Shown here in pieces: positions 1 through 6,746 of a DNA stretch of 64,000 nt. How positions within the stretch are numbered: position 1 is the stretch's first letter; the number at the start of each line of letters is the position of its first letter. The position numbers and the translations under genes were made by a program. This stretch comes from Microbacterium sp. SD291 (GTDB lineage: Bacteria; Actinomycetota; Actinomycetes; Actinomycetales; Microbacteriaceae). Location: positions 62,001-126,000 of the forward strand of contig NZ_JADIJR010000006.1 in the NCBI RefSeq assembly GCF_017355365.1. The letters are read 5' to 3'. The notes below the pieces were generated by a model. That model was not told where the DNA came from. It made no database searches and saw only the letters and a list, made by a program, of their open reading frames with translations.

Positions 1-285
1 GCGGTGATCGCCGGTGCGCCGGTACCTGCAGACCCTGACGAGATCGTCGTGCTCATCGACACGATCCTGCGTGGCGCGTTCCGCGGCGACTTCGCGGTGG
101 CACTCGATCGCGCCGCCGCCTTCGCGCGGGTGCAGGCCTCCGGCGCCACGCACACCGCGGACGACTACGAGCGGACCGAGCCGGGTCGGGCGAGCGAGCT
201 CACCAGGCGGGCGCTGCGGCTGAGCAGCTACGCGCAGGACCTCTCAGCGGCCGCCGCACTGTGGCGCACGGGTGCGCTGGCCTGA
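1..285 (+). CDS. C-terminal fragment of an unrecognised protein (5' end outside window)
   Basis: The frame is open to the left edge, so this is the last 94 codons of a longer gene that ends with TGA at 283-285. The GTG at position 4 could be an internal valine and is not chosen as a start. The fragment is rich in alanine and arginine and looks helical. I see no catalytic motif, no membrane segment and no signal peptide. It is followed by 181 bp before pabC that contain a strongly base-paired stretch, so a shared transcript with pabC is not obvious. I do not recognise the family; pabB-like C-terminal motifs are absent. Confidence 0.6.
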   Translation, partial: AVIAGAPVPADPDEIVVLIDTILRGAFRGDFAVALDRAAAFARVQASGATHTADDYERTEPGRASELTRRALRLSSYAQDLSAAAALWRTGALA

Positions 286-333
286 GCGCCGCTTCGGGCA
301 GGCATCCGGAGACGGGCCCCTGACATGAGAAGA

Positions 334-409
334 CCGGGCCGCAAGAACGCCTCTCGGCGGAAGGCCGCTCAAAGCGGCAAAAATTGGAGCCCGGGGTTAT
401 GCGGCCCGG
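334..409. other. Strongly structured intergenic segment (candidate RNA element or cruciform)
   Basis: A perfect 10-bp outer stem pairs CCGGGCCGCA (334-343) with TGCGGCCCGG (400-409). Inside are two further stem-loops: CGCC-TCTC-GGCG at 348-359, and GCCGC/GCGGC at 364-378. A purine-rich single-stranded stretch, AAAAATTGGAG, follows. The arrangement resembles a multi-branched RNA rather than a simple terminator, and there is no T-tract. The probable pabC promoter (-10 at 454-459) lies downstream, so this is unlikely to be the pabC leader. It could be an independent small RNA or the 3' structure of the upstream gene. I cannot assign a known RNA family. Confidence 0.45.
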
Positions 410-466
410 CCGTTCAATTGTAACGCGATACGCCCGTGGCTATTCCCGGCCCCTAGGCTCGGTCTC

Positions 467-1351
467 ATGACCCGGCGCTTTGCTCTGATGATCGATCCCC
501 TCGCGTCCGACGAGACGCGCGAAGATTACGCGGACACCTTCACCCAGGTGGATGCCGCGGCACCCGCGCTGAGCGTGGGCGAGCTGAGCACGCAGCGCGG
601 GGACGGCGTCTTCGAATCCATCGGCGTGGTCGGCGGGCACGCGCAGGAGGTCGTGCCGCACCTGGAGCGCCTCGCTCATTCCGCCCGGCTGTGCGACCTC
701 CCCGTTCCCAACCAGGCGCAGTGGCGGCAGGCCGTCGAGCGTGCGGCCGAGCAGTGCGGTTCGGGGGAGTCGGTGATCAAGCTCATCCTCAGCCGCGGTG
801 TCGAGCACGGCCCGACGCCGACCGCCTGGGTGACGGCGGCTCCTGCCGCCGATTTCACGGCCCCGCGGCGCGACGGCATCCGCGTCGTCACCCTCGACCG
901 CGGCTACGACCTGGGTGCTGCCGAGCGGGCTCCCTGGCTGCTGCTCGGCGCGAAGACCCTCTCGTATGCGGTGAACATGGCGGCTCTGCGCGAAGCGCAC
1001 CGTCGCGGCGCGGACGACGCGATCTTCCTCTCCAGCGACGGCTTCGTGCTCGAGGCGCCCACGGCATCGCTGATCCTGCGCTTCGGCGACCGATTCGTCA
1101 CGCCGGCGCCGAACGGCGGCATCCTGCACGGCACCACCCAGCTCAGCGTCTACGATCACCTCGCCGCTCGCGGGTTCGAGGCCGGGTACGACCGCATCCC
1201 GGCATCCGATCTGACCGGCGCGGATGCCGCCTGGCTGGTCTCCAGCGTCCGCCTCGCAGCTCCCATCACCGCGATCGACGGAGTCGAACTGCCCGTGGAC
1301 GCCGCGCTCACCGCCGACCTGAACGAGTACCTGCTCTCGCCCCGCGACTGA
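467..1351 (+). CDS. pabC: Aminodeoxychorismate lyase, PLP class-IV aminotransferase family
   Basis: This 294-residue protein has the class-IV PLP fold. The expected enzyme converts 4-amino-4-deoxychorismate to p-aminobenzoate and pyruvate in cytoplasmic folate synthesis. Visible signals are an N-terminal GDGVFESI segment, the PLP-binding lysine near residue 163 in LLGAKTLSY, the downstream LEAPTASL segment (residues about 199-206) and NGGILHGTT. The length fits the family. The ATG at 467 lies 7 nt after a TAGGCT -10-like hexamer (454-459), which suggests a leaderless transcript. A branched-chain or D-amino-acid aminotransferase would share the fold; the overall pattern and length fit PabC-type proteins better. 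No folate neighbour is present to confirm it. Confidence 0.75.
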   Translation: MTRRFALMIDPLASDETREDYADTFTQVDAAAPALSVGELSTQRGDGVFESIGVVGGHAQEVVPHLERLAHSARLCDLPVPNQAQWRQAVERAAEQCGSGESVIKLILSRGVEHGPTPTAWVTAAPAADFTAPRRDGIRVVTLDRGYDLGAAERAPWLLLGAKTLSYAVNMAALREAHRRGADDAIFLSSDGFVLEAPTASLILRFGDRFVTPAPNGGILHGTTQLSVYDHLAARGFEAGYDRIPASDLTGADAAWLVSSVRLAAPITAIDGVELPVDAALTADLNEYLLSPRD

Positions 1352-1382
1352 CGCGGCCGGCTGGGGCCCGCCGGCTTCAGGA

Positions 1383-1462
1383 GGAAACGGGGACGAGACC
1401 GCGAGGATCCGGCGTGTCGTGCTCGGACACGCCGTGCCGATCACGGATGATCCCGGCTTTCC
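1383..1462. repeat. 80-bp palindromic element, copy A (downstream of the DUF559 gene)
   Basis: The core is GGCGTGTC (1411-1418), seven bases, then GACACGCC (1426-1433). The right arm contains GATGATCC (1446-1453) and ends TTTCC (1458-1462). The left arm starts GGAAA (1383-1387). A second element with the same plan, length and orientation lies at 2457-2536, on the other side of the DUF559 gene. Copy A ends 19 bp from the stop codon of that gene and starts 31 bp after pabC, so it may also act as a terminator. Confidence 0.65.
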
Positions 1463-1481
1463 ACGGCGGACGTCTTGGAAG

Positions 1482-2333
1482 TCAGGCCGCCGGCAGCAGG
1501 TGGGCGCCGCGGGCGATCGCGCCGAGGATCGCGTTCTCCACGACCTGCCAGTTGTGGACGATCATCGCGTACGTGAACCGCAACGTCATGTATCCCGCAG
1601 CGGCGGCCGCCGCGTCACGGTAGAGGTCCTTGGCACGCTCCTTCTCCCGCTCGTGGTTCTCACGGCCGTCGGCCTCGATTATCAGGCGATCGCCGACGAG
1701 CAGATCGACCTCGCCGACCCCGACGATGTCCACCTGCGTGCGGACGTGGATGCCGAGCCGATGAAGACGCAGACGGACCAGGGACTCGAGCCCGCTGTCG
1801 GCGTCGGGTCGGGCGAATCCGAGCAGCCAGCGCATGGAGATCGGCAGATGCCTCCACAGCCAGGCGACGTCGGCGGGGGAGAGCAGCGACTGGCGCAGCG
1901 CTGATTCGAGCGCAGCGAAGAACGTGTCTTCGTCTGCGCACTCCGCGATCTGCAGCAGCACGTTGGCGACCGGTGGCAGGATGCCGACACGGACGCGACC
2001 GGCATCCCAGTGCAGACGGCAGTTCTCGCAGGCGGAACGGTGCGTCCCGGAATCACCCATCCAGATGTGGTGCTCCTCCGGGACCTCCACGATCCAGAGC
2101 CCGAGCGATGCACCGGCTTCGCAGCAGCCGATCGTCCCACCGTGGGACGCGGCGTGCCTCAACCGCTTCGAGGTCTCCGGAAGGCAGTACACACCCTGGC
2201 GGGGGCGCAGCACCTCGCGAGCACGGACCGCGCGAGTGAGCTCGGACGCCGTCACACCCTGTCGCTTCAGCTCAGACGTGCGCGCCATCCGCCCGAGAGA
2301 ACGAAGGGTGGCGTCTGCGCGGACGAACGACAT
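1482..2333 (-). CDS. DUF559 (Vsr-like endonuclease fold) protein with N-terminal AbiEi-like HTH
   Basis: From the ATG at 2333 the product is 283 residues. The N-terminal part (MARTSELKRQGVTASELTRA and on) is the winged-helix segment found in AbiEi-type antitoxins. The C-terminal half carries the DUF559 pattern: a glutamate before LVRLRL, VGEVDLLVGDRLIIEADG, NHE, then KD and RD pairs. This is a PD-(D/E)XK/Vsr-type nuclease core. GGAGG sits directly against this ATG; an upstream GTG (2435) or a downstream ATG (2288) are alternatives. No cognate toxin gene is adjacent. The gene is closely bracketed by two 80-bp palindromic repeats. The fold assignment is family knowledge; nuclease activity and mobility are inference. 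Confidence 0.7.
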   Translation of the reverse strand: MSFVRADATLRSLGRMARTSELKRQGVTASELTRAVRAREVLRPRQGVYCLPETSKRLRHAASHGGTIGCCEAGASLGLWIVEVPEEHHIWMGDSGTHRSACENCRLHWDAGRVRVGILPPVANVLLQIAECADEDTFFAALESALRQSLLSPADVAWLWRHLPISMRWLLGFARPDADSGLESLVRLRLHRLGIHVRTQVDIVGVGEVDLLVGDRLIIEADGRENHEREKERAKDLYRDAAAAAAGYMTLRFTYAMIVHNWQVVENAILGAIARGAHLLPAA

Positions 2334-2456
2334 CCTCCGATCGTGGACGGGAGGGCAGTCGCCCGGTGGGCGCTGGTGCCACGGTGCCCACACGCTGGGG
2401 ATGATCCGCAGCATCCGCCACCCGTGCAGATCCACTCATCCGACCTGCGCAGCATG

Positions 2457-2536
2457 GGAAAACCCGGACCATCTGCTCGGCGACCGGCGTGTCACACGTC
2501 GACACGCCCAGTCGCGATCAGATGATCCGGGTTTCC
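2457..2536. repeat. 80-bp palindromic element, copy B (upstream of the DUF559 gene)
   Basis: Nested inverted repeats: the outer arm GGAAAACCCGGACCATCTG (2457-2475) pairs, imperfectly, with CAGATGATCCGGGTTTCC (2519-2536). The inner arm GGCGTGTC (2486-2493) pairs with GACACGCC (2501-2508) across a 7-nt loop. Length, core stem, GATGATCC box and TTTCC end match copy A at 1383-1462 in the same orientation. The loop sequence differs, while the stems are kept. Confidence 0.7.
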
Positions 2537-2556
2537 GAGACGAGAGAGACCGAGAG

Positions 2557-3336
2557 TTACCCGAAGCGGCCCGAGACGTAGTCCTCGGTCGCCTGCACGC
2601 TCGGCGTCGTGAAGATGGTCGAGGTGTCGTCGTACTCGATGAGGTTGCCGGGCTTGCCGGTGCCGGCGATGTTGAAGAACGCCGTCCGGTCCGAGACGCG
2701 CGACGCCTGCTGCATGTTGTGCGTGACGATCACGACCGTGTACTCGTTCTTGATCTCGGCGATCAGCTCCTCGATCGCGAAGGTCGAGATCGGGTCGAGG
2801 GCCGAGCAGGGCTCGTCCATCAGGATCACGTCGGGGGAGACGGCGATCGCGCGCGCGATGCAGAGGCGCTGCTGCTGGCCGCCGGAGAGGCCGGAGCCCG
2901 GCTTGTCGAGGCGGTCCTTCACCTCGTTCCAGAGGTTCGCGCCGCGGAGCGACTGCTCGACCAGGGCGTCCTGGTCGCTCTTGGCCATCCGCGAGTTGTT
3001 GAGCTTGACGCCCGCGAGCACGTTCTCCTTGATGGACATCGTGGGGAACGGGTTCGGACGCTGGAAGACCATGCCGACCTGACGGCGGACCAGCACGGGG
3101 TCGACGTTCGGGCCGTACAGGTTGTTGCCGTCGATGAGGACCTCACCCTCGACGCGAGCGCCGGGGATCACCTCGTGCATGCGGTTGAGGGTGCGCAGGA
3201 AGGTCGACTTGCCGCATCCGGACGGGCCGATGAAGGCGGTGACGGTGTTGGGCTTGATGTCGATGCTGACGCCCTCGACGGCGAGGAAGTCGCCGTAGTA
3301 GACGTTGAGGTCGTTGACTTCGATGCTCTTGGACAC
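2557..3336 (-). CDS. pstB: Phosphate ABC transporter ATP-binding protein PstB
   Basis: This 259-residue ATPase of the high-affinity phosphate importer sits on the inner face of the membrane and powers PstA-PstC. Walker A is GPSGCGKST (residues 37-45), the signature is LSGGQQQRL, Walker B is [13 protein letters not shown], and the switch histidine is in [10 protein letters not shown]. The start is GTG at 3336 with AAGGA upstream. It is the last gene of the pstS-pstC-pstA-pstB operon and begins 35 bp after pstA. Length and motifs match PstB exactly. Confidence 0.97.
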
Positions 3337-3371
3337 GAGAGATCCTTCTTCTTCAGTCGGGTTGATCCGGC

Positions 3372-4472
3372 TCAGCGGCCGTTAGTCTTCGGGGCGAACA
3401 CCTTGGCGATGACGCGCGCCAGCAGGTTCAGCACCATCACGATCAGGATGAGCGTGAGGGCGGAGGCCCAGGCGCGATCGAGATATGCCTCGACCGGGAT
3501 GCCGGGGTACTTCGCCTGCATGTAGGAGAACACGGGGAGGGTGGCCATCTGCCCGCTGAACATGTTCAGGTTCATGCCCTGCACGATGCCGACGGTGAGC
3601 AGCAGCGGGGCCGTCTCGCCGATGACACGCGAGATCGCCAGCATGATGCTCGTCGTGATGCCCGCGATGGCGGTCGGGAGGACGACCTTGATGATGGTCA
3701 GCCACTTCGGCACCCCGAGGGCGTACGCGGCCTCTCGGAGCTCGTTCGGCACGATCCTCAGCAGTTCCTCTGAGCCGCGGACGACGACCGGGATCATCAG
3801 CACCGACAGCGCCAGGGAGCCCATGATTCCCATGCGGGTTCCGGGTCCGACGATCAGCGCGAACACCGAGTAGATGAACAGACCGGCGACGATCGACGGG
3901 ATGCCGGTCATGACGTCGACGAGGAAGGTGATCCCGCGGGCGATCCTGCGGCCCTCGCCGTATTCGACCAGGTAGATCGAGGTCATCAGGCCGATCGGGA
4001 CGGAGATCACGGTAGCGCCGAGCGTGATCAGCAGCGTGCCCCAGACGGCGTGCACGGCGCCGCCGCCCTCGCCGACGATGTTGCGCATCGAGAAGCTGAA
4101 GAACTCTCCGTCGAAGCGGGCCAGGCCGTTGATGAGGACCGTGTAGAGCAGCGAGACGAGAGGAAGCAGCGCGACGACGAAGGCGCCGGAGACGAGCGCC
4201 GTCATCAGGCGGTCGATCGCGTGGCGCCGGCTCTCGATCAACGAGGACATCACGACGATGAGCGCCATGTAGAAGATCAGCCCGACGACGAGCGTGAGCG
4301 CGATGTTGAAGTCGGCAGGATCCCCGCCGCTGTTGGCGAAGGCGAAGATCGTCGCGGAGATCGCGAACGACACGAGCAGAAGCGCCCACGGCGCCCACTT
4401 GGGCAGGTGGCCGGCGGTGGTGGTGTGCGTGGCCGGCGCGATCGCGACGGGGGGAGTGGCTGTGGCGGTCAT
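3372..4472 (-). CDS. pstA: Phosphate ABC transporter permease PstA
   Basis: This 366-residue inner-membrane permease forms the phosphate channel with PstC. The N-terminus (residues about 28-120) has three predicted membrane helices preceding the usual permease core, so the protein is longer than a minimal PstA; such N-terminal extensions occur in actinobacteria. The core holds the binding-protein-dependent transport (EAA) loop, [20 protein letters not shown], which contacts PstB. The ATG at 4472 is one base from the pstC stop codon, indicating translational coupling. Confidence 0.95.
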
Positions 4473-4473
4473 G

Positions 4474-5442
4474 TCAGTTGGCTCCCGAGAACTCGGCGCG
4501 GCGCGAGACGATCCAGCGGGCCACGAAGTTGACCGCGAAGGTCACGACGAAGAGGATCAGGCCGGCCGCGATGAGCGTGTTGACGCCCTCGTCGTGGGCC
4601 TCGGGGAACCGCAGCGCGATGATCGCGGGGATCGTCGTGGGGTTCTCAGGGTTCAGCAGGTTGAAGGTGACGATCCCGAGCGGCGACAGCACGAGCGTCA
4701 CGGCCATGGTCTCGCCGAGAGCGCGGCCGAGACCGAGCATCGCACCGGAGACCATGCCGCTCCTGGCGAAGGGGAGGACAGCCATGCGGACCATCTCCCA
4801 GCGCGTCGCGCCCAGCGCGAGCGCGGCCTCCTCGTGAAGCTTCGGGGTCTGCAGGAACACCTCACGGCAGATGGCCGTCATGATCGGCAGGATCATGACG
4901 GCGAGCACCAGTGCAGCGGTGAGGATGGTCTTGCCCGTGCCTGAAGGGGTGCCGCCGAAGAGCGGGAACCAGCCCATGTTCGTGTTGAGCCACTTGTAGA
5001 AGGGCACGAGCATCGGGGCGAAGGTGAGTGCGCCCCACAGGCCGAAGACCACGGAGGGCACGGCCGCGAGAAGGTCGATCACGTAGCCGAGGAGCCCGGC
5101 GAGCTTGCGCGGGGCGTAGTGCGAGATGAACAGCGCGATGCCGATCGCGATCGGGGCGGCGATGATCAGCGCGATGAAGCTCGACCACAGGGTTCCGAAC
5201 ACGAACGGCCACACCCAGGACAGGAACGACTCGCCCTCGAGGATGTGGTTGCCGGAGGTGTCAGGAGCGAACGCCGGGATCGCCTGGACGATCAGGAAGA
5301 GGGCGACGGCGGCGAGCGTGACGAGGATGATCATGCCCGCCCCGAGCGCGGTGCCGGAGAAGATGCGATCACCCGGCCGGCGCACGGCCGTGCGGGGCCT
5401 GGAGGAACGGGCGGTATCGGGGCCCGTTGAGGTGGTGGTCAT
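4474..5442 (-). CDS. pstC: Phosphate ABC transporter permease PstC
   Basis: This 322-residue permease partners PstA. About six membrane helices are visible, starting near residue 33 (TALGAGMIILVTLAAVALFL). The EAA-type loop is HEEAALALGATRWEMVRMAV (about residue 205), followed by LGRALGETMAVTLV, a typical PstC signature. The gene follows pstS after a 152-bp gap that contains a very strong hairpin, so PstC is probably made in smaller amounts than the binding protein. Confidence 0.95.
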   Translation of the reverse strand: MTTTSTGPDTARSSRPRTAVRRPGDRIFSGTALGAGMIILVTLAAVALFLIVQAIPAFAPDTSGNHILEGESFLSWVWPFVFGTLWSSFIALIIAAPIAIGIALFISHYAPRKLAGLLGYVIDLLAAVPSVVFGLWGALTFAPMLVPFYKWLNTNMGWFPLFGGTPSGTGKTILTAALVLAVMILPIMTAICREVFLQTPKLHEEAALALGATRWEMVRMAVLPFARSGMVSGAMLGLGRALGETMAVTLVLSPLGIVTFNLLNPENPTTIPAIIALRFPEAHDEGVNTLIAAGLILFVVTFAVNFVARWIVSRRAEFSGAN

Positions 5443-5510
5443 CTGAGCGGCTCCACGTTGCTGGTTGAGAGGCGGCGTGCTGTGAGGCGTACGGGGGTCT
5501 TCATGCGGGT

Positions 5511-5557
5511 GCCCCCGCGGTTCCGGTCGAGATCCTGTCGACCGGAACCGCGGGGGC
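5511..5557 (-). terminator. Strong intercistronic hairpin between pstS and pstC (attenuator or processing site)
   Basis: Arm 5511-5530 (GCCCCCGCGGTTCCGGTCGA) is perfectly complementary to 5538-5557: 20 bp around a 7-nt loop. No long T-run follows on the minus strand, so it is probably a partial terminator or an mRNA-stabilising structure that raises PstS above PstCAB rather than a full stop. A smaller stem (GCTCAG/CTGAGC, around 5570-5588) lies between it and the pstS stop codon. Confidence 0.75.
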
Positions 5558-5594
5558 GACGGTGTCGGAGCTCAGCGTTCGGCTGAGCGTCCGG

Positions 5595-6695
5595 TCACTC
5601 CGTGACGATCGCGTCGATCGCGGCAGTGATCTGCTCGCGCAGGCTGTCCGAGATCGGCGCGCTGCCTGCGGTCTCAGCCGCGACGTCCTGGCCCTCGGCC
5701 GAGGCGATGAACTCGAAGTACGCCTTGACGACGGACGCGATCTCGGCGTCTTCGTACTCGACGCAGCCGATGAGGTAGGAGACGAGCGCGATCGGGTACG
5801 AGCCGGCGGGCGCGGCCGCGGGGTCGACGTCGAACGCGAGGTCGTGGGCCGAGCGGCCCTCCTCGAGCGGCGAGGCCTCGACGAGAGCAGCGGCTGCCTC
5901 GGCGGAGTAGGCGACGTACTCGCCCTCGACCTCGACTGCGACCTGTCCGAGCTCGGAGGTGCGGGAGGCATCGGCGAAGCCGATGTAGCCGGCGCCGTTG
6001 GTGATGGCATCGACGACGCCCGACGTGCCGTCTCCGGCCTCACCGGTCGCCAGCGGCCATTCGTCTCCGGCCTCGTAGGTCCAGACGTCCGGGGCGACGG
6101 CGCTGAGGTACTTGGTGAAGGTCTCCTGCGTGCCGGACGCGTCGGCGCGGTGCACCGGGACGATCGCCAGGTCGGGGAGCTCGACGCCCTCGTTGAGTGC
6201 GGCGATCGCCGGGTCGTTCCAGTTGGTGATGCCGCCTGCGAAGATGCCGGCGATCGTCTTGCCGTCGAGGTTCAGCGCGTCGATGCCCTCGAGGTTGAAC
6301 GCGACGGCGACCGGCGAGATGTAGACGGGGATCTCGACGATCTCGTCCGACGCGCAGGAGCCGAAGCCGCCTGCGGCGAGCTCCTCGGCGTTGAACGCAC
6401 GGTCGGAGCCGATGAAGTTCGAGGAGCCGGCGATGAAGTTCTCGCGGCCGGTGCCGGAGCCCGTCGCCGTGTAGTTCACGGTGGTCTCGGGGTTCGCGGT
6501 CTGGAACGCGGCGACCCAGGCCTGCTGGGCTGCTTCCTGCGAGGAGGCGCCGGTCGCGCCGATCGTGCCGGAGAGTGCGGATGCCGAGGGAGCCTCGGTG
6601 GAGTCGGTGGGGCCTTCGTTCGCGGCACAGCCGGCGAGAGCGAGAGCGGCCACGGCGCCGACGGCGCCGATACGTGCGATTCGGGAGATCTTCAC
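5595..6695 (-). CDS. pstS: Phosphate-binding lipoprotein PstS
   Basis: This 366-residue extracytoplasmic solute-binding protein captures phosphate for PstCAB. The GTG at 6695 is preferred: AAGGATC precedes it and it places a lipoprotein signal right at the N-terminus (VKISRIARIGAVGAVAALAL then LAGC). The conserved phosphate-binding segments GATGASS, FIGSDRAF and HRADASGTQETFTKYL are present. It is first in the pst operon, with Pho-box repeats upstream, so phosphate-starvation induction is expected. Confidence 0.95.
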   Translation of the reverse strand: MKISRIARIGAVGAVAALALAGCAANEGPTDSTEAPSASALSGTIGATGASSQEAAQQAWVAAFQTANPETTVNYTATGSGTGRENFIAGSSNFIGSDRAFNAEELAAGGFGSCASDEIVEIPVYISPVAVAFNLEGIDALNLDGKTIAGIFAGGITNWNDPAIAALNEGVELPDLAIVPVHRADASGTQETFTKYLSAVAPDVWTYEAGDEWPLATGEAGDGTSGVVDAITNGAGYIGFADASRTSELGQVAVEVEGEYVAYSAEAAAALVEASPLEEGRSAHDLAFDVDPAAAPAGSYPIALVSYLIGCVEYEDAEIASVVKAYFEFIASAEGQDVAAETAGSAPISDSLREQITAAIDAIVTE

Positions 6696-6746
6696 TGTGG
6701 ATCCTTCGATCTTGGTTGGGTGGGGCCCGGTGCAGGGCACACAGTG

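Follow-up and report, generated by a model that had tools for sequence, protein, structure and literature searches.

The window analysed here, a stretch of 64,000 nucleotides from Microbacterium sp. SD291, possesses near its beginning a gene of the AbiEi_4-DUF559 kind (1482..2333, minus strand) which is framed by two palindromes, E1 (1383..1462) and E2 (2457..2536), neither of them assigned to a strand. The gene encodes a protein of 283 aa with an N-terminal winged-helix part and a C-terminal Vsr-like nuclease part. E1 lies between the 3' ends of this gene and of a convergent pabC-like gene of aminotransferase class IV (467..1351, plus strand), while E2 is situated between the start of the DUF559 gene and the 3' end of a phosphate ABC transporter ATPase gene (2557..3336, minus strand), which has an ABC_tran match and which we take from the gene order to be pstB. 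This gene forms the other edge of a site that is filled in some relatives and empty in others, and the pabC-like gene adjoins the site in both cases alike. Judging from the sequence, the DUF559 gene likely starts at the ATG at 2333 and not at the GTG at 2435; its relative in genome G040 starts alike.

The Pfam scan of the window protein found DUF559 and AbiEi_4 above their cut-offs and MTES_1575 below its cut-off. The N-terminal half matches AbiEi, and the protein is composed of an AbiEi-type winged-helix part fused to a predicted Vsr/I-Bth0305I-like nuclease part. The Pfam entry for DUF559 gives its function as unknown, and none of the 4 proteins of the AbiEi_4-DUF559 kind that were checked carries an NCBIfam name. 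Sequence search of solved structures yielded nothing useful and the plasmid search with the locus gave no match.

E1 and E2 are both 80 bp long and share a core, GGCGTGTC-N7-GACACGCC, surrounded by palindromic outer arms with ends of the form GGAAA...TTTCC, and their loops are unlike. E2 folds far better than its shuffles (z -8.9) and E1 shows a weaker effect (z -1.7 on the plus strand, -3.2 on the minus strand). The exact core was found at three places in the SD291 genome, namely E1, E2 and one more, and the pattern read backward at none. With a loop of 4-14 nt it was found in 18/149 genomes of the genus, and single core matches are partly due to chance because the backward control also matches in 6/149. 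A covariance model of 90 aligned columns, R1, was built from 15 copies of eight genomes. As the build set includes E1 and E2 and, from each of G040, G069 and G071, one element of the pst locus, the matches at these elements are not independent, including those at E1 (1379-1465, 66.1 bits) and E2 (2454-2540, 72.5 bits). In the R1 alignment, 28 of 40 pairs have changed on both sides, and none of 500 shuffles was as high. R1 matches 10 places in the SD291 genome, E1 and E2 included (E=2e-12 to 0.013), followed by two at E ~8, and matches at E up to 0.01 are present in 37/149 genomes of the genus. Several of these copies are paired about 1 kb apart. A search of Rfam with window positions 1-6000 found no match for E1 or E2 at E up to 5, and at the gathering score seven loci gave two tRNAs and nothing else. 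The first-pass annotation of the window, made from its letters, had described the two 80-bp elements with their shared core and differing loops, had called the framed gene DUF559/AbiEi and had raised the possible recurrence of the elements; the first two points were confirmed, and the elements do recur.

The pabC-pstB site in related genomes

A close relative of the DUF559 gene (E below 1e-70) was found in 11 of the 149 genomes. R1 matches occur in 10 of these 11 genomes and in 27 of the 138 without it. When the matches beside the gene are not counted, the figures become 9/11 and 27/138 (Fisher p 5e-5, uncorrected for genome relatedness), the only R1 copies of G034 being those beside its DUF559 gene. 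R1 is present on both sides of the close relative in nine of the 11 genomes, five of these elements being part of the R1 build set. The signal of G145 is weak on both sides, and around the gene of G021 R1 is not convincing and a matched pair of its own is found instead. In G069, a third window-type palindrome lies beyond the pabC-like gene (L089:6606-6692), by which two neighbouring genes are each framed.

Thirty further genomes were inspected at pstB. Eight of them carry a diverged family gene (45-48% identity) adjoining pstB, and these genes are framed by palindromes of other outer sequence, e.g. GCACAACTTCGGA...TCCGAAGTTGTGC. pabC is in its usual place in seven of these eight loci, and in L120 a fragment only was matched. 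At 18 loci the pabC-pstB gap is 34-225 nt long and lacks the DUF559 gene. Folding of these 18 empty gaps found one palindrome in L128, L116 and L135 and a partial one in L117, while most of the others hold another hairpin and the rest no long one. In L133 and L136 the gap is close to 1 kb and gave no profile match; in L119 and L129 no pabC was seen within range. Across the examined loci, presence of the gene goes with two palindromes and its absence with one or none, and the flank types at the pst locus track the divergence of the gene. In the gap between the DUF559 gene and pstB of L130, the palindrome is accompanied by tandem copies of one arm (TCTCCGAAGTTGTGCGCGGGCAGGCGCGGA unit), which looks like an amplification of half an element.

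The first-pass annotation had raised the co-occurrence of gene and elements and the existence of an empty pabC-pstB site in relatives, and both were observed. It had also likened the locus to repeat-plus-enzyme systems such as REP/RAYT, here with a Vsr-like nuclease. The recurrence of the elements, their co-occurrence with the gene and the other matched pairs around other family genes (described below) favour this likeness; the implied frequent mobility of the gene was not demonstrated, because the gene and its two palindromes are kept in place at the pst locus across several species. For the same reason, the pair in the window was rejected as proof of recent gene mobility.

Matched palindromes around other genes of the family

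Five more genes of the family (E below 0.001) are present in the SD291 genome. Each has matched flanks of its own sequence, and hence all six genes are framed, the copy at the contig end in L023 being cut short. When left and right flanks were compared all against all in a six-by-six table, the own pair came first in every row and exceeded the highest of 200 shuffles; that of the window gene was among the weaker of the six (24.5 vs 20). The pair of L024 was missed by the repeat listing and revealed by folding and alignment. A seventh AbiEi_4 match (L388, contig 12) was left uncounted because it has no match to the DUF559-family profile.

Framing was analyzed in a larger set of 80 loci from named genomes, mostly of Microbacterium and some of Agromyces, of which four at contig ends were left out. 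In the remaining 76, the median flank score was 39 for self pairs and 17 for mixed pairs. With a threshold of 24, the best of 76 shuffled pairs, 69/76 DUF559-family loci scored above it compared to 11/97 control genes, and a score of 30 was reached by 63/76 and 2/97, respectively. The controls come from 233 other genes of the same loci, 25 of which score above 24; the 97 used are those with flanks away from the DUF559 gene. The second clade showed the same picture (28/30 loci above 24). For the rest of the class, 30 loci were taken, and 17 remained after leaving out 11 without a profile match and two genes with short flanks; 10 of these 17 two-domain genes scored above 24 and 8 reached 30. Of the ten class loci printed, most have long palindromes to the left and right of the gene, L247 being an exception. 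Genes with the AbiEi_4 domain are found in 63/79 genomes of the class, many of them, not all, also having the nuclease part. Well-matched flanks were also seen around two control genes without DUF559, L203:4703-5350 (score 53) and L217:5330-5977 (33.5), which are possibly other genes that picked up palindromes on both sides. Alignment A7 comprises 37 sequences; L189 and L214 were dropped because a stop codon interrupts their stated frame, and some others to keep it short.

Half-sites and positions of the scattered copies

Two more models were made from palindromes beside other SD291 genes. R3, for which the two palindromes flanking L026 and the reverse complement of each were the sole input, finds four further scattered single copies in the SD291 genome and matches in 55/149 genomes (54 besides SD291), while control loci totalling 171 kb gave a single match (E 0.52). 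R2, from gene L025, behaves similarly but discriminates less well than R3, the 171 kb of control loci giving 19 matches at E up to 1; the 100/149 genomes that it matches are therefore an upper figure. By eye, CAGG-type half-sites can be recognised in most of the 20 R2 loci that were printed. In the elements of both families, each arm carries two half-sites in direct orientation at a spacing of about 19-20 nt, and these are inverted across the centre. In the R3 half-site, GTCG[C/G]AG, the variable base is identical in all four half-sites in 16/16 elements from 16 genomes, eight elements having C, eight having G and none being mixed. This count covers 16 of 20 R3 loci; L253, L259, L263 and L270 were omitted for their length, their register or as the gene's own flank, and are concordant by eye. 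The spacers between the half-sites pair slightly above shuffles (0.69 vs 0.60). Since the arms pair with each other and the direct repeats do not, the joint base in four half-sites points to a reader of single half-sites, most simply a protein. About half of the R3-type genomes carry GTCGGAG for GTCGCAG (L261, L262, L265-L267, L269-L272), a ready-made natural recognition switch.

The scattered copies also follow the variant found beside the gene. In five genomes, 19 of the 20 scattered copies checked, which were chosen among the listed matches with half-sites of lost pattern skipped, carry the same base as the palindromes beside the gene of that genome, including 6/6 G-type copies in G109 and 4/4 C-type copies in SD291. 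Among 20 regions examined, R2 or R3 pairs 0.7-1.4 kb apart enclose a DUF559 gene in G109, G123, G001 and G029; wider pairs enclose none, and in G051:C5 the gene is positioned beside a single element. The R1 pairs of G096 and G034 correspond to the pst locus. Matched pairs could in principle also be produced without the protein, by gene conversion or duplication of local repeats through ordinary host recombination, which can keep nearby repeats alike; the tandem extra copies seen in G029 would fit such a passive origin. Given that the family is framed far oftener than other genes and that distant scattered copies follow the variant beside the gene, we consider this origin very improbable.

Most copies are situated in tandem or convergent gaps (19/29 R1, 17/20 R3 and 19/20 R2 loci), where they lie at a median of 20-26 nt past the stop codon, while 89-97% of random positions in the same loci fall within called genes. 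Six of the R1 loci and one R2 locus fall within a called gene. Divergent gaps hold 4/29 R1 and 3/20 R3 copies, two of these three R3 copies being beside a DUF559 gene. The tally includes some pairs beside a DUF559 gene, and the genes in it were called by a simple home-made caller.

A distinct position was observed between two domains which we take to be pxpB and pxpC. The linker joining them has an R1 match (E below 0.005) in 8/30 loci, and all eight linkers have a length that is a multiple of three and are read in frame with no stop. Linkers lacking an R1 palindrome occur in other species. In the SD291 genome, a fused pxpB-pxpC frame on contig 4 (L085:3496-5244) contains two window-type palindromes that are read in frame, one where the domains meet and one close to the 3' end of the fused frame.

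These positions bear directly on the possibility that the palindromes are large two-way terminators which any gene may carry, so that a gene inserted between pabC and pstB would need one at each end and the nuclease would be unrelated to them. The short distance of the gap copies from the stop codon in mostly convergent or tandem gaps, the A-rich and T-rich ends at the hairpin base, the ordinary hairpin in many empty pabC-pstB sites and the R1 copy at each end of pxpC in the SD291 genome, which is not a DUF559 gene, all agree with termination. The same explanation meets difficulty with the contrast between controls and family loci in matched flanks, with the separate palindrome sequence of each of the six SD291 genes, and with the joint change of four half-sites, some of them direct repeats without mutual pairing. 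E2 and the elements corresponding to it are found upstream of the gene as well, four of the 29 R1 sites are in divergent gaps, and a terminator would harm in the pxpB-pxpC linker. Termination alone is insufficient because eight copies are in frame inside this coding linker. A pair serving as terminators only was rejected on the mostly unframed controls, the other pairs of other family genes and the copies inside coding sequence, and the wider terminator explanation appears unlikely to us.

A little less probable still is that the protein is a self-regulating DNA binder, for which the palindromes would be operators and the scattered copies a regulon or roadblocks, with the nuclease acting on foreign or damaged DNA, e.g. 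in phage defence. Its N-terminal half matches AbiEi, one palindrome lies upstream of the gene, and, according to the accessible portions of PMC7319586, the promoters of AbiEi and Rv2827c contain inverted repeats to which these proteins themselves bind, Rv2827c to four at once. A self-regulator does not account for the second palindrome downstream of the gene, the scattered copies are mainly at 3' gene ends and not in divergent promoter gaps, and the two genes adjoining the DUF559 gene in the window do not encode toxins.

Two other repeats were seen in the window. A perfect 20-bp inverted repeat with a 7-nt loop (5511-5557) between pstS (5595-6740, minus strand) and pstC (4474-5442, minus strand) is likely a terminator or attenuator within the pst operon. 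Upstream of the pabC-like gene, a nested inverted repeat was noticed by eye at about 333-411, with arms GGGCCGCA ... TGCGGCCC.

A putative enzyme-palindrome partnership and known systems

Taken with the framing of the family genes and the copies at gene ends, we find it rather probable that the protein binds the palindromes and spreads or renews them by cutting. Binding, cutting and spreading are predicted activities of the AbiEi-DUF559 protein. The winged-helix part would contact the half-sites of the cognate palindrome, as suggested by the binding of inverted repeats by AbiEi and Rv2827c, and the nuclease part may nick or cut at the palindrome. Repair from another copy could then place a palindrome into gene-end sites or convert the one already there. 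Such copying and conversion would keep the flanking and scattered copies of one genome alike, and enzyme and sites would change together. The complete unit would be the gene together with its two palindromes, and the single palindromes would be small descendants of it, as is thought for rayt genes and REPs, with termination at gene ends perhaps being a useful by-product. The proposed copying would explain why, in orthologous type A pst loci, the palindromes of one genome are more alike (27) than orthologous ones (19.5, 20.25).

Several observations weigh against this proposal. In type B pst loci the effect is absent, palindromes of the same genome (36.5) being not more alike than orthologous ones (34.5, 40.5). 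The self-match was the best of 76 in 36 loci only, being among the top five in 70, and no matched pair at threshold was found in 7/76 loci and 7/17 class genes; the controls are also an easier comparison than wide-gap genes, because their flanks often hold coding neighbours. Protein identity and palindrome similarity correlate with a Spearman coefficient of 0.08 between genomic contexts and 0.42 within the same context, and therefore carriage of cassettes to new places is not demonstrated. Of the 37 R1-positive genomes, 27 have no close relative of the gene, and no search for another cognate gene was made there. Pairs spaced 0.6-1.4 kb apart without a DUF559 gene between them were found for R3 (G003:C46 and G051:C1) and for R1 (G023, G078, a further place in G069, and the pair around pxpC in SD291). 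The contrast in the variant match comes from G109, the sole G-type genome beside four C-type ones, and one of the scattered copies in G051 has the opposite variant. The window type has no clear four-fold half-site like that of the R2 and R3 types. No clean insertion with target-site duplication was found; the pxpB-pxpC linkers vary in the presence of the palindrome and do not align to the base.

The nearest known arrangement is that of REP/RAYT. In the accessible portions of PMC2817692 and PMC3116915, RAYT genes are said always to lie between two inverted REPs, the REPs to co-evolve with them, REP numbers to depend on the cognate gene, and the palindromes of orthologous genes to change yet stay matched. 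Like that system, the present one has a gene between two palindromes, further copies outside genes and several distinct gene-palindrome pairs per genome. The copies of the present families number at most about 15 per genome, whereas REPs usually exceed 100 (accessible portion of PMC2817692). The enzyme here is AbiEi-DUF559 (Vsr-like) and not an IS200/IS605-type transposase; the transposase domain PF01797 was not among the Pfam matches of the window protein and two same-locus relatives, which were AbiEi_4, DUF559 and MTES_1575 only. The palindromes also differ, being about 75-100 bp long and, in two types, possessing two direct half-sites per arm. REP palindromes carry a GTAG or CGTC tag at the foot (PMC3733652); in E1 and E2, the two elements checked for it, this tag was not found, and they begin with GGAAA and end with TTTCC. 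Although the architecture is the same, the system is not a member of REP/RAYT because the enzyme family differs.

Other relatives share single features. The window protein has an I-Bth0305I-like catalytic domain in common with EDxHD homing endonucleases and Vsr, but is encoded by a free-standing chromosomal gene with an AbiEi-type N-terminal part, flanking palindromes and metabolic and transport neighbours. With AbiE type IV toxin-antitoxin systems (AbiEi; Rv2827c) it shares the AbiEi-type winged-helix domain, but here a nuclease domain is joined on and palindromes are found on both sides and elsewhere in the genome. No DUF1814 toxin gene lies beside the window gene, its neighbours being the aminotransferase class IV gene and the ABC ATPase gene. 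In Rickettsia palindromic elements, a palindromic insert is read in frame within a protein gene. The in-frame palindrome of the pxpB-pxpC linker resembles them, but here the genome also possesses a nuclease gene with palindromes of that family on either side. In the literature, the accessible part of a function paper on a Vsr-like DUF559 protein of Caulobacter contains no palindromes (PMC12907096), and that of PMC3710099 names the MTES_1575 nuclease domain in a large HEPN-fused protein of Microbacterium testaceum. A literature search found no paper that connects palindromic repeats with genes of the DUF559, AbiEi_4 or Vsr-like kinds, subscription journals being mostly outside its reach.

On a wider scale, a selfish system may extend across this actinobacterial class, in which AbiEi-Vsr nucleases would each own a palindrome family, read its half-sites and copy and homogenise it by cutting and repair. 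It would be an independent invention of the REP/RAYT kind, with fast-diverging codes and mostly private palindromes; we regard the case for it as evenly balanced. If each gene does keep a private palindrome family, this would account both for the genes and for a large set of unnamed intergenic repeats. It would provide a second, unrelated partnership of enzyme and palindrome for comparison with REP/RAYT, and dozens of natural enzyme-site pairs with co-changing half-sites would offer a readable and testable DNA-recognition code.
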